Shown in pieces: positions 23,807-50,000 of a stretch of 64,000 nucleotides of DNA. Both the position numbers and the translations under genes were made by a program. Numbering within the stretch: the first letter of the stretch is position 1; each line of letters begins with the position of its first letter. The stretch lies in assembly GCF_005952805.1 (NCBI RefSeq), contig NZ_CP040709.1, positions 310,001 to 374,000 on the forward strand, read 5' to 3'. The notes under the pieces are model-generated. The model ran no database searches and was not told where the DNA came from. It saw nothing but the letters and a program-made list of their open reading frames with translations. The DNA is from Inhella inkyongensis. GTDB lineage: Bacteria; Pseudomonadota; Gammaproteobacteria; Burkholderiales; Burkholderiaceae_C.

Positions 23807-24230
23807 CGTTTAGATCTCCCAAGTGTTCACCGTTCCCGTCAATGACTTCCCCAGTGCCAGGATTTACGCCACAAGCATCGCCAGCCCTGGATCCCGGCTT
23901 GCCTTTGTTGTTGCCCTTGATGTTGTGGAATCTTTTTCTCCCGGCGTCTTTGCCAATGCCATTGCGGCGCCCCCACTCTTCAGCTCCCTTGTCCCCGGGC
24001 CAAAACCCAGAGGGCAATCTCGAGCTAAACATCCTGTCCAGCACCGCCAAGCCACCACCAACAATGGCGACCGTAGCGCCCACGTCCATTGCTGTGATAC
24101 CGCCCGCGATCCAGGGAATCGCCAGCGCCGGGAAGATCAAGCCGGTGGGATCCGTGTACTTGACGGGGTTCCCCCCGACGTAGCTGTACGTATTGATCCC
24201 CCCCGCCAGCCCGATGGGATCGGACTGCGT
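23796..24230 (-). pseudogene. displaced rhs tip B (former C-terminus of the resident Rhs)
   Basis: About 136 codons after the 23-bp core. The sequence continues DPIGLAGGINTYSYVGGNPVKY, then a hydrophobic stretch with AMDVGATVAIVGGG (shared with tip D), and a charged C-terminal domain GAEEWGRRNGIGKDAGRKRF ... DGNGEHLGDL that may be the toxin. It is cut off from an Rhs core by mobile-element DNA. Reading upstream in frame reaches a TAA at 24387-24389, with only a GTG at 24248 as possible start. It is best explained as the original tip of the rhs gene before the element inserted at 24208-24230. Confidence 0.8.
24208..24230. repeat. 23-bp rhs-core att-like site, outer (old-tip) junction
   Basis: Identical to 35855-35877 and 47502-47524. 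To its left is displaced tip B; to its right is the element end, which encodes GRSYTQ instead of the native LGRYTQ. Identity between the three sites stops exactly at both ends of these 23 bases: at 24207 versus 35854 on one side, and at 35878 versus 47525 on the other. This is the pattern of a recombinase core site. It encodes most of TQSDPIGL on the minus strand. Confidence 0.7.
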
Positions 24231-24357
24231 GTAGCTCCGCCCAGGCACCCATCCGCCGTAGTTGCAGGCGTTTTCCTGAGGCGTGACGCGGGGTTGCGGA
24301 GCGAAGTAGAAGACGGCCTCCCGTGGCGTGGTGGTTTTTTCTCCAGAGGCCCATTGT

Positions 24358-24404
24358 GCCCATCGCGCACGCGCGCGGGATGGGCGTTACCGCGCTGGCG
24401 CGCG
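24358..24404. promoter_or_regulatory. paired inverted repeats at the element's integrase end
   Basis: GCCCATC (24358-24364) pairs with GATGGGC (24379-24385), and a second GC-rich stem (about 24391-24404) follows at once. They lie between the 23-bp core and the small gene at 24458. They could terminate the integrase operon, or act as arm-type sites for recombinase or excisionase; the sequence does not decide. Also present in copy 2 at 36005-36051. Confidence 0.4.
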
Positions 24405-24457
24405 GTGGCGGCTAAGAGGAAGAAGCCCGGGGCGCGGCCAGGCTGCGGGCGGCGGGG

Positions 24458-24697
24458 TCAGCCCCCGTTGAACCAGGGGTAGCCGACGCGCTCGTAATAC
24501 TCCATCGCCATGCGGCGCTCGTCGCTGCCGTTGCTGCTGTAGCCGTCCGCGCGCGGGTTGTCGGCCCAGTTCATGATGCCGGCCAGGTCGGCGATGAAGC
24601 CCGTCAGCACCATCTCGGGCGTCACGCCGTCGCCATCGCACAGCTCGACGAACTCAGGCGGCAGTTGCAGGGTCAGGCGGTTGGTCTTGCGGGGCAT
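24458..24697 (-). CDS. small RHH-like protein, possible excisionase/accessory factor (copy 1)
   Basis: 79 residues. The N-terminus RLTLQLPPEFVELC, followed by VTPEMVLTGFIADLAG, fits a ribbon-helix-helix DNA-binding fold. The C-terminal half (DERRMAMEYYERVGYPWFNG) is acidic and aromatic. It begins 11 nt after the recombinase stop on the same strand and is the last gene before the att-like site, the place where recombination directionality factors are often coded. Family not recognised; role inferred from position. Confidence 0.55.
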   Translation of the reverse strand: MPRKTNRLTLQLPPEFVELCDGDGVTPEMVLTGFIADLAGIMNWADNPRADGYSSNGSDERRMAMEYYERVGYPWFNGG

Positions 24698-24708
24698 GGC
24701 GGGCTCGT

Positions 24709-46742: not shown

Positions 46743-46834
46743 AGGGCTTAAAACTGCAGGCCTGACACCCGCCCCCGAACCCCAGCCAAACGAAGGCCAG
46801 CGGCTTAGCGGCTAAGGGTGGGGCCAGATGCGAC

Positions 46835-46858
46835 AAGGCCCGCTGGGTGGCGGGCCTT
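46835..46858 (-). terminator. terminator of the rhs-immunity transcript (copy 2)
   Basis: Perfect 9-bp stem with a 6-nt loop, identical to 35188-35211. It closes the transcript of the complete rhs gene and its Cys-rich partner. Confidence 0.6.
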
Positions 46859-46889
46859 GTTCACGGGCCATGCACGAGCTGCTGAGTTT

Positions 46890-47099
46890 TTAGACCCAGG
46901 GGCGAGGCCACTTGTCCTTCTTAGCAATCTCTCGAAGATCAGATACGCAGTCCATGCATATCGGGCTCAGTTGTCTGGGGAATATCTTGGAATGAAGGTA
47001 CTGCGTCAGTAAAAGTCTCTGACACAAGGCGCATCTTCCCCCCTCGTCGGGCATGAACTCCTCGCCACTCTTCGCGCATTTGAAGGGCATCGTCGTCAT
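46890..47099 (-). CDS. Cys-rich zinc-ribbon-like protein, putative immunity for active Rhs tip A (copy 2)
   Basis: 69 residues, identical to 35243-35452. Here it is directly coupled (ATGA) to the complete rhs gene and is the only candidate to protect the cell from tip A. Cys 8, 23, 26, 48 and 51 are intact. Confidence 0.65.
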   Translation of the reverse strand: MTTMPFKCAKSGEEFMPDEGGRCALCQRLLLTQYLHSKIFPRQLSPICMDCVSDLREIAKKDKWPRPWV

Positions 47100-50000
47100 G
47101 GATAGCCATCCTTGTTTCCGGCGCAACTCGCCATGCATCCAATCGACGTGCCAGCCGCCCATCCGATGCTGGCAGCAGTGGCGACACCACTCACTTTTGC
47201 AGCAGTTAAAACTGCTTGCGCTGCCTTCGGGCACTGCTGCGCAAGGGCGCCAAATCCTGCGCTAAGCCGAGGAGGGGTAACGCCCGAGATCTTCCCGTTA
47301 GAGTCAAAAGTAGGCCGTGGTGGCGAATACGGCGCATTCGCCACGATGTTGGTCGGAACGACCGACTGCAAGGCGGTGTCACCACCAAGAGCGCTCATGC
47401 ATGATGTGTAGCAAGACGGGAAGTCTGGCGCCAAACCGGTCGAATCAGTCTTGGATACCGGGTTCCCATCCACATACGCATACGTATTGATCCCGCCCTG
47501 TAGCCCGATGGGATCGGACTGCGTATACCGCCCCAACTGCGCGTCGTAGTAGCGGTTCCAGTTGTACCAAAGCCCGCTCTCGGCATCGAGGTACTGCCCC
47601 GGAAAACCCAGCGCATAGCCGCCCACCTGGTCCAGCGCCACCGTGCGGTTCCAGCCGCTCAGGGCGGCGCGCCAAGCCAGGGCGCCGGTGGGCGTGCTCA
47701 GCACTTCGGGGCGGCCCAGTTGGTCGGCGTGCACGTAGTACAGATTGCCGTTCTTCACCAGGGCCAGGGGCTGACCGAACAACCAGATGTGGGCGCTGCT
47801 GCCGCTCGGGCCCAACTCGGCCAGCAACTCGCCACCCTGACCGTAGACATAGCGGGTGTCGCCAGCGGCGGAGCGCTTCATCGCCCGCTGGTTCAGGGCA
47901 TTGCTCCAGTAGTTGGCCACCACGCTGCCATTGATGCTCAGGCTTTGCAGGCGCTCGAAGGCGTCGTAGCTGTAGCTGCGGCTGCCGTCCCAGCGGCTCT
48001 CGCTGGCCAGCTGGCCCAGCGCGTTGTAGGCCAGATTGCGCCATTGCGGTCCGCCCACTGCCGTCACCCGGTTGCTTCCGGCCGCGACGCTGGGGGCCAA
48101 ATTGCTGCCGTTCTCGCTGCTGCTGATGCGGTTGCCCACGGCGTCGTAGCCGTGGCTCAGGCTGTTGCCGCCACCGTTGTAGCTGCTCAGGCGCAGGCCG
48201 CTGTCATAACCCAGGCTGGCGGACTGCGCCGGATAGGCCCCGTTGTTCAGGCTGGCCACGGTGTCATTGGTATTCCAGTTCAGGCTCAGGTCCTGCACCC
48301 CGGGGCTGGCCACCTGGACCAGCCGCCCCGAGGCATCCTGCACCAGGCGGCGCTGCAGGTTGTTGCCCAGGCGCCAGGCCAGGGGCTGGGTGCTGCCGGG
48401 GTGATAGACAAAGCTGTCCGCCAGCGTGATGGTGCTGCCATTGAGCGTGGCGCTCAGGCTGCTGAGTCGGCCATGGGCGTCGTAGCCATACTGGAGTACC
48501 AATCCCGCGACCGGATAGCTCATCCAGGCCAGGCGGCCGGCGGCGTTGTAGCCCCAGCCGGTGCTCAGGCTCTGGCCCTGGATCACGTTGACCTGCTGGG
48601 TCAGCGCGCCGGCGCCGTCATAGGCATAGCTGCTGCTGCCCGAGGCGTCGCTCAAGCTGGTCAGGCGACCCTTGCCATGGGGGCCGGCGTCGTAGCCATA
48701 GCTTTCGCTTTGAGCACCGCTGCTGCGGCTGCGCAGCCGGCTCAGTGCGTCCCAGCCATAGCTGATCTGGCTGCCGTCGTTGCGGGTGACGCTGAGGGGG
48801 CGGCCCCAGTTGTCGGGCGTGGTGCTGCGCACGCCGGTGTCGGGACTGGTCAGGCGCACCAGGTTGCCAAATACATCGAAATCATGGTCGGTGATCAGCC
48901 CACGGCCGTCCTTGATGGTGTCCAGCTGGCCACTGCTGTCGTACCCGTATTCGATGCTGCCCCAGCCTGGCTCGGTGTGGGTGCGCAAACGCCCCAGCGC
49001 GTCGTAGCTGTAGCTGGTGCGGCGACCATTGATGTCGTCCTGCCACAGTAGATTGCCCTCGTTGTCGTGGCCAAATCTGGTGCGCTGGCCGTTGGCAGCT
49101 GTGAATAGATAGGGGCGCCCCAAGCTGTCGTACTGCAGGGCGGCCGAGAAGCTGCCGGCGGCGACGCTGCCGGGTGCTCCGGTGGCGCCGCCGCTGGGCA
49201 GCAGGCGTGGCGCGCTGGTGCTGTGGGTGCGGTTGGCAACATCCAACACTTCGGTGCTGCTGGCGCCGACGAAGCTGACCCCGGTGACACGGCCGGCGCT
49301 GTTGCGCGCGTAGTGGACGCTGACGCCGGACTCGGTCTGCGAGAGCAGTTGGCCGCCGGCATTGAAGGTCCAGGTGGTCGAGCGGTTGCCACCGGCCAGC
49401 ACCTGGGTGCGGCCGATCAGGCGACCGGCGGCGTCCCAGACCAACTGGCTGCTGACGCCGTTCGAATCGGTGGCCACCGAGGGATAGCCCATGGCGTTAT
49501 GCCCCGAAAACGTGCTGGCATGCCCGGCCAAATTGCTGCTCGCGATCAGGCGTCCGCTGCTGTCGTAGCTGCTGCTGCGGCTGGCCGAGCCACCGGGCAG
49601 GTTGAGGGTCTCGGTCACCGAGGCGAGCAGGGTGTTGGGGTGAAAGCCATAGGCAAAGCTGCGCACGCGCTGCACGCTGCCGCTGGCATTGCTCAGGGTT
49701 TCGGTGGCCACTTTGCCGCTGGCCAATCCGCTGCTGTGGTAGCTGTAGCTGGTGGTGCGCAGCAAGGCGCCGTTGCTGCCGTACTCCTTCACGGTGCTGA
49801 GGTCGGCGCCTGCCCAGGTGTAGACGGTGCGCAGGGCCTCGGGGCTGCCAAAGCCGTCGATTTGCTCCAGTAGGCGGCCGCTGAAGTCGTGGCTGTACTT
49901 GGTTTGCGTGCCGCGCCAGTCGGTGCTGTTGGTGAGGAAGCCGCGCGCATCAAAGCTCTGCGAACGGGCCGCGCTGCCACAGGTGCTGGTGGCGGCTCGG

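Follow-up and report, generated by a model that had tools for sequence, protein, structure and literature searches.

An XerC-like recombinase element at the core/tip boundary of an rhs gene in Inhella inkyongensis, and a proposed route for exchanging the ends of polymorphic toxins

The power of polymorphic toxins lies in their exchangeable ends, and the agent of that exchange is left open in the available parts of the accounts of 2009 (PMC2935791) and 2016 (PMC4927057). In the Rhs C-terminal displacement described by Jackson 2009 (PMC2935791), an incoming tip replaces the old one, the old tip comes to lie dissociated downstream, and a circular intermediate is postulated. Orphan cdiA-CT/cdiI modules are mobile, join the core at the VENN motif and accumulate downstream of it (PMC3150448, PMC4927057); integrase and transposase genes lie among them, and site-specific recombination was suggested (PMC4927057, 2016). 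In bee gut bacteria, integrase-like genes near rhs were suspected of moving Rhs sequences (PMC5727410, 2017). Here we report a locus of Inhella inkyongensis that resembles all three: two head-to-tail units of 11,647 bp, each with an XerC-like recombinase, at the core/tip boundary of an rhs gene within a stretch of 64,000 nt (NZ_CP040709.1 310,001-374,000; hereafter the window, whose positions are used for all window coordinates). We propose that the recombinase integrates a circular element into a polymorphic toxin gene at the motif between core and tip, whereby the core gains the tip of the element and the former tip is likely left beyond it, and we put the probability of this reading at about 0.85. 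It rests on the 23-bp boundary repeats, the in-frame fusion, the unrelated tips, the tandem copies, the kept recombinase-primase backbone and the rhs and cdiA alleles of Escherichia coli.

The two units are delimited by three perfect copies of the 23-bp sequence AGCCCGATGGGATCGGACTGCGT (Table 1), whose minus-strand reading is TQSDPIGL, the conserved end of the Rhs core; in Enterobacteriaceae the Rhs boundary motif has been given as PxxxxDPxGL (Poole 2011, PMC3150448). Identity between the units ends exactly at the edges of the 23-mer, and the units differ at one position (35758 vs 47405), a synonymous ACG/ACA change in a Thr codon. An exact match of 23 bp at each end of a unit exceeds chance and coincides with a functional protein boundary, and as flanking direct repeats the 23-mers are possible attachment sites of an integrative and mobilizable element (IME). 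On the minus strand the order is rhs core, site, tip A, an overlapping small gene, two small open reading frames (ORFs), coupling ATPase, MobF relaxase, primase, XerC-like recombinase, a short leader and the site again, followed by the second unit, a third site, tip B and a gene with a weak DUF4279 match. Ahead of the boundary motif the rhs frame has 1,354 codons free of stops, and from the motif on 139, the host core running in frame into tip A of the element, while the unrelated tip B lies beyond the units. The rhs product has RHS_repeat matches, with TIGR03696 ending at residue 1372 of 1483, and its YD repeats and core leading to DPxG are those of an Rhs polymorphic toxin; tips A and B are unrelated past the boundary.

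A preliminary description of this DNA had claimed an 11,647-bp unit with recombinase, MobF relaxase and coupling ATPase, bounded by a 23-bp sequence coding for part of the TQSDPIGL motif, with a tip and coupled small gene in frame with the chromosomal rhs core and the former tip on the opposite side; all of this is borne out by the three perfect repeats, by PF00589, NF002331 and the relaxase and ATPase profiles, and by the open frame and the position of tip B. The element that it placed at 24208..47524 proves to be two tandem copies, and the attachment site, which it took to be the rhs core, narrows to the boundary motif and does not extend to the core in general.

Alleles with and without such elements are found in E. 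coli, where 59 of 5,426 complete genomes hold a related recombinase gene, at up to 6 places per genome. Between ansP and nhoA, strain JNE120442 (L122) has an rhs core with tip and immunity gene, next the remnant of a second tip together with nuclease and SMI1/KNR4 genes, then SymE, HTH, primase and xerC genes, and then a further tip with its immunity gene. Strains 21F61 (L124) and JNEC-KY177 (L125), both outside the 59 genomes, are element-free at this rhs, and their core runs in frame into the tip that is found behind the element of JNE120442, and the immunity protein is the same in both. Rightwards from the site, 21F61 and JNE120442 are 100% identical over 16,935 bp; leftwards they are 99.7% identical over 3,976 bp, followed by a diverged stretch of 174 bp and then by 10,005 bp at 99.9%, and the two sites of JNE120442 are 7,928 bp apart. 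The pair shares the site GAYCCGATAGGGTTG, in which the third base goes with the old tip, and therefore the exchange lay at or to the left of that base, or a mismatch was resolved there.

The same arrangement is seen in cdiA of strains C11 (L141, with the element; 7,782 bp between sites) and Bongo (L152, without it), which are 99.7% identical over 11,131 bp to the right and 97.3% over 7,011 bp to the left. This pair shares exactly 13 bp, TGTTGAGAATAAC, encoding VENN, the motif by which the CdiA toxin region is recognised (PMC3150448). In C11 the cdiA frame stays open through 903 codons up to VENN and through 266 codons starting with it, although a frameshift is annotated elsewhere in the gene. 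Among the 40 of 42 genomes listed in a search with the C11/Bongo tip region, seven matches cover 7-8% of the query and were not counted, and 33 cover at least 95%. Of these 33 listed matches, 31 start at one identical base, 13 bp before TGTTGAGAATAAC, and over those 13 bp the leader resembles the core just loosely; the matches in C10 and C11 reach into the element. The 31 are annotated as part of cdiA (25) or as VENN pre-toxin proteins (6), and one of these genomes, ZYB39, also has a related xerC at another place. The new tips of the two E. coli pairs are unrelated to the displaced ones. A core fused to the displaced tip without an element, the check proposed in the preliminary description, is thereby seen for elements of this kind in E. 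coli rhs and cdiA, though not in the genus or family of the host. Several orphan cdiA-CT modules in C11 (L141 21492-33399) and in Bongo carry TTGTTGAGAATAA before VENN, which is the end of the element leader and unlike the GKNAVENN-type sequence of the core; these may be scars of earlier insertions.

Relatives of the recombinase were collected by its sequence similarity alone, which gave 76 loci from many phyla. The copies of the window itself (L001, L002, L080) were excluded from the locus comparison, and L003 (a primase-only match) and L081 also from some later ones. For the counts, the Rhs boundary was sought with a profile whose seeds came from the window, E. coli and one further complete genome (G141) and from none of the 76 loci; an earlier boundary HMM seeded from these same loci was set aside for counting. 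A primase lies on the recombinase strand in 73 of the 76 loci. The Rhs boundary is found in 35, with 49 matches on the recombinase strand and 0 on the opposite strand, and it falls within 1.5 kb downstream of the recombinase in 19 of the 57 loci with room for it, against 0 of 19 control XerC/D-like loci. Where recombinase identity is at least 60%, 11 of 13 loci have the Rhs boundary on the recombinase strand, and the two others (L010, L016) have just 792 and 204 bp of sequence past the recombinase. In these 11 loci the close class is not at unrelated sites, a finding that by the preliminary description would have refuted it; among distant members, some lie in or behind toxin genes of CdiA/TPS type, with the boundary mapped in C11 only, and most of the distant loci without an Rhs match, discussed below, may have unrelated targets.

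Element-borne and displaced tips counted together, the 53 tips split into 42 clusters, and because they do so, the tips are not tied to the backbone; in the close clade, 16 tips fall into 15 clusters, the sole pair being the duplicate of the window itself. The close clade also has a conserved leader at the recombinase-side end, which reaches to the site. In some loci this leader contains stop codons, so that there the displaced tip is unreadable from upstream. In Massilia frigida (L015) a core continues in frame into a tip, the recombinase follows, and a second boundary lies 9,145 bp on; more than one recombinase copy is present in 7 of the 76 loci. A relaxase and coupling ATPase are extras in this family, found in L012, L014, L037 and L048, with a relaxase alone, on the other strand, in L065.

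At least two families serve as targets, Rhs among them, and the single target named in the preliminary description is in this respect too narrow. A large ORF lies ahead of the element or recombinase in 28 loci, of which 13 were chosen after their ends had been viewed and were then scanned with Pfam; the remainder include a DNA polymerase, relaxases and unscanned ORFs. Eleven of the 13 are of Rhs or CdiA/TPS type: seven have RHS repeats (L040, L043, L056, L069, L073, L076, L119) and four have hemagglutinin/DUF637 domains as in CdiA/TPS proteins, namely those of a P. aeruginosa plasmid (L118), Atopomonas (L052), Trinickia (L041, bearing PT-VENN) and P. poae (L050, bearing an EndoU tip). The other two (L058, L067) match no Pfam family. 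For the 41 loci that lack an Rhs match, 95 of 116 neighbouring ORFs, drawn from 37 loci, were scanned with Pfam, and the 25 of 45 families listed for them include PT-HINT with two members and CdiA_C, a CDI toxin, CdiI, EndoU, SUKH and Imm70 with one each, besides transposase, integrase and unrelated families.

Three of these arrangements may be described in their own right. Plasmid pPA1609-475 of P. aeruginosa (L118 6625-17320) has tandem 8,179-bp units, the first beginning inside tpsA2, with VbhA, RelE-type and C39-peptidase genes and a repeat start that contains neither DPIG nor VENN. In Catenovulum sediminis the same element stands on chromosomes 1 and 2 (L067, L068), behind a large protein. 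In G141 a recombinase faces seven opposite-strand tip ORFs spaced 0.85-1.2 kb apart, each opening with an almost identical 60-bp piece of core end (L148, L153-L155; C1 ~120400-138700), with two more such tips at 120433 and 121867 and an rhs ORF of 1,097 codons nearby on the opposite strand; no primase was found beside this recombinase in the stretch searched.

Several results weigh against the proposed integration at boundary motifs. Outside the Rhs core, tip A matches no family of Pfam or NCBIfam and has no known toxin domain, and 41 of the 76 loci have no Rhs-boundary match to the independent profile. The longest DNA repeat shared by the two sides measures 11-16 bp in many loci with a single copy, which is not above chance, and so the boundary in such loci rests on the protein motif; in Massilia frigida the 14-bp repeat at the boundary is equalled by others of 14-15 bp. 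Tip B occurs in 1 of 399 genomes of the family, the host itself, and these contain no empty site; nor does the genus, in which only G004 has a clear rhs relative, at 61% identity. The E. coli elements compared are not pristine, as the primase of JNE120442 and the cdiA gene of C11 are annotated as frameshifted, and the E. coli pairs alone cannot tell gain of an element from its loss. A one-unit difference of ~6.8 kb between the closely related strains R12 (L123) and MP1 (L127) has its switch at 21182-21248 of L123 by diagnostic bases, ~700 bp before the site; units are therefore also gained or lost by homologous recombination between units, and we rejected this pair as a further site-specific case. 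In R12, a rat isolate, none of the rhs, primase and xerC genes is annotated as broken.

Homologous recombination is also the basis of the alternative that survives best, in which ordinary exchange between rhs cores swaps the tips and the element is a passenger between two of them. Such an exchange leaves the displaced tip with a fragment of core, and this is what the window shows for two further rhs 3' fragments, with ~276 (tip C) and ~344 (tip D) core codons, which look like older displacements by homologous recombination; it is not what is seen at tip B, which retains 23 bp only. The boundaries of the two fragments are themselves marked by further copies of the 23-mer, one with a single mismatch at 22477 and one perfect at 20102, each fragment precedes small genes, and the start of tip D resembles that of tip B (70% over ~46 residues). 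Core recombination is the published model of C-terminal displacement (Jackson 2009, PMC2935791), and the R12/MP1 change is likewise homologous recombination. At the junctions of the two E. coli pairs, however, exact homology amounts to 12-13 bp, and what borders the displaced tip on its left is element leader instead of core, an argument that the loosely core-like ~13 further bp of the cdiA leader qualify. Exchange between cores would also leave the shared strand of recombinase and Rhs boundary in 35 of 76 loci to be accounted for, and we consider it unlikely.

An ordinary IME might instead restore the 3' end of rhs with an equivalent copy and leave the weapon unchanged, as gene-restoring ends are common among tyrosine-recombinase elements. 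The new ends are unrelated to the displaced ends both in the window and in the two E. coli pairs, and tips across the family are as diverse as their clustering indicates, which makes this version very improbable. Least credible of all is that the tandem copies are a product of assembly or unequal crossover with no bearing on integration, since their near-identity could be explained in that way for the second copy only and not for the boundary repeats, the in-frame fusion or the relatives, among which multiple recombinase copies recur as they do in E. coli.

The preliminary observation is accordingly real, and its interpretation is supported and more general than first stated. Its claim that insertion swaps the toxin is supported insofar as the new tip differs from the displaced one; tips A and B themselves are putative toxins. 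Tip A has one homologue, at 67%, at the end of another Rhs protein, and a comparison of tip B with solved structures gave no meaningful match. The weak DUF4279 match of the gene after tip B (E 0.00047) is under the Pfam cut-off.

Table 1. Features of the Inhella inkyongensis window; for features of the unit, both copies are given.
Feature	Position, or outer copy	Inner copy	Strand	Basis
rhs gene, in which the host core (47525-51547) runs in frame into tip A	47096..51547		minus	RHS_repeat, Rhs_assc_core
Core-proximal attachment site, encodes TQSDPIGL	47502..47524		minus	perfect 23-mer, unit identity stops
Unit-unit attachment site, junction as expected of circle	35855..35877		minus	23-mer
Tip-B-proximal attachment site	24208..24230		minus	23-mer
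Element copy, 11,647 bp	35855..47501	24208..35854	minus	outer, 1 mismatch to inner copy; inner, repeat comparison
Tip A, predicted toxin (outer copy core-fused, inner copy with no core attached)	47096..47524	35449..35877	minus	outer, profile scans and tip clustering; inner, tip clustering
Small gene overlapping tip A stop, candidate immunity gene	46890..47099	35243-35452	minus	ATG at 35452 (inner)
Small ORF, relatives in L012, L014, L048	45426..45764	33779-34117	minus	locus comparison
Small ORF, relatives in L012, L014	45084..45413	33437-33766	minus	locus comparison
TrwB/TraD-type coupling ATPase	43827..45071	32180-33424	minus	profile matches
MobF (TrwC/TraI-type) relaxase-helicase	41177..43804	29530-32157	minus	profile matches, HxH at residue 156
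CHC2/Toprim primase	37522..40632	25875-28985	minus	domain matches
XerC-like tyrosine recombinase	36356..37525	24709-25878	minus	PF00589, NF002331
Displaced tip B	23796..24230		minus	23-mer, Rhs_assc_core end, tip clustering
Gene after tip B, candidate immunity gene	23378..23806		minus	weak DUF4279
rhs 3' fragment with tip C	22002..23381		minus	long-homology-type displacement
rhs 3' fragment with tip D	19735..21075		minus	core comparison

The gene content of the unit is that of an integrative element which is mobilizable by prediction, and the preliminary claim of mobilizability holds at that level, on the strength of the relaxase and ATPase genes. The recombinase scores 408.9 bits on NF002331 (PRK01287; curated cut-off 371), as befits the site-specific recombinase of an IME, and contains motifs that we take to be the catalytic R-K-H-R-H-Y set; NF002331 members above this cut-off are rare: among 399 genomes of the order 8 have one, the host counted, and among 14 control genomes 0. 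The large ORF left unnamed in the preliminary description is the CHC2/Toprim primase, which by eye has a Walker-A-like stretch downstream of those domains. Relaxase and coupling ATPase are accompanied by no secretion-channel family among the unit ORFs scanned, some short ORFs being unscanned. A small ORF of ~79 codons lies between recombinase and leader (24458-24697, with a copy at +11,647), and its DNA matches L021, L072 and L082 in another frame.

We suggest the following course of events. The recombinase would join the site of the circle to the boundary motif, whereupon the tip just inside the element would fuse to the host core, followed by its immunity gene; with a coding site and a cut at the domain boundary, any tip just inside the element would fuse in this way. 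The small gene after tip A would give immunity. The old tip would keep its immunity gene but lose the core and, with it, presumably its voice, and the element-free alleles would represent the older state. Once excised, the circle would be replicated by the primase, and relaxase and coupling ATPase would permit transfer through the secretion channel of a helper. New tips may be acquired when recombination joins the core site to a boundary site that lies farther downstream, so that the unit would come to include an additional tip; we infer this because the P. aeruginosa plasmid unit (8,179 bp, with a C39-peptidase tip) and JNE120442 both hold one.

Two plasmid records deposited as circular are made up largely of a related element: Shigella flexneri SWHIN_104 unnamed3 (8,758 bp) and Lonsdalea populi N-5-1 unnamed1 (11,289 bp), the latter with two tip/immunity pairs. 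Exact terminal repeats of 127-141 bp occur on contigs L018, L032 and L064, and contigs L007, L008, L017 and L045 are permuted. Since collapsed tandem arrays could look identical, these records are only suggestive of an excised circle in relatives.

Such elements likely spread new weapon ends between bacteria. We also think it probable, with less assurance than for the integration itself, that they form a bacteria-wide class of weapon-exchange elements, XerC-primase units that would use DPIG-coding (Rhs) or VENN-coding (CdiA) DNA as attachment site, load a toxin/immunity pair in frame, displace the old pair, stack, and build orphan arrays, with G141 reduced to a recombinase and a seven-tip array of integron-like form. 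If so, here is a mobile element that pays its way by arming its host against kin without it, and orphan arrays may be read as a record of past insertions. With a concrete agent, a defined site and E. coli comparison strains now in hand, tip exchange becomes testable at the bench.

Among described systems, C-terminal displacement comes about by two homologous recombinations limited by core homology (Jackson 2009, PMC2935791, in the part available to us), whereas here a recombinase-primase element stands at a junction with 12-23 bp of exact homology. The available text on orphan cdiA modules (PMC3150448, PMC4927057) names no element, primase, attachment site or pair of alleles with and without one, whereas here VENN-coding DNA is the junction; that on bee gut bacteria (PMC5727410) leaves its question open and gives no attachment site or boundary. 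XerC/D beside polyimmunity loci is the subject of a single remark in the portion of Zhang 2012 seen (PMC3482391), with neither element nor target, and the likeness is that of a recombinase beside immunity arrays. In Bryopsidales, an rhs-like ORF has been noted in chloroplast genomes and a bacterial primase-like ORF in that of a different species (PMC4487195). A search of open-licence papers in PMC, a scope outside which most subscription papers and bioRxiv preprints fall, yielded no description of the element or of boundary motifs as attachment sites. A phage or satellite origin was set aside as the principal explanation, given 6 viral-contig relatives at 23-38% identity in a single-sequence scan that reaches close relatives only.

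IMEs of the tyrosine-recombinase kind combine recombinase, relaxase and coupling protein with direct repeats in a conserved gene. The present element differs from them in that its target gene receives a new effector domain and not a copy of its old end. Integrons are recombinase-driven arrays of promoterless cassettes, and the G141 recombinase facing its tips resembles such an array. The recombinase of the window, however, scores 115.2 bits on TIGR02249 (IntI) against a cut-off of 265, by which we rejected an integron; its sites are coding boundary motifs, and nearly every unit has its own primase and recombinase. In the mobile CDI transposon of Burkholderia thailandensis, finally, CDI genes ride on an excising mobile element and the whole CDI locus moves, as we understand that system, whereas here only the toxin end does.

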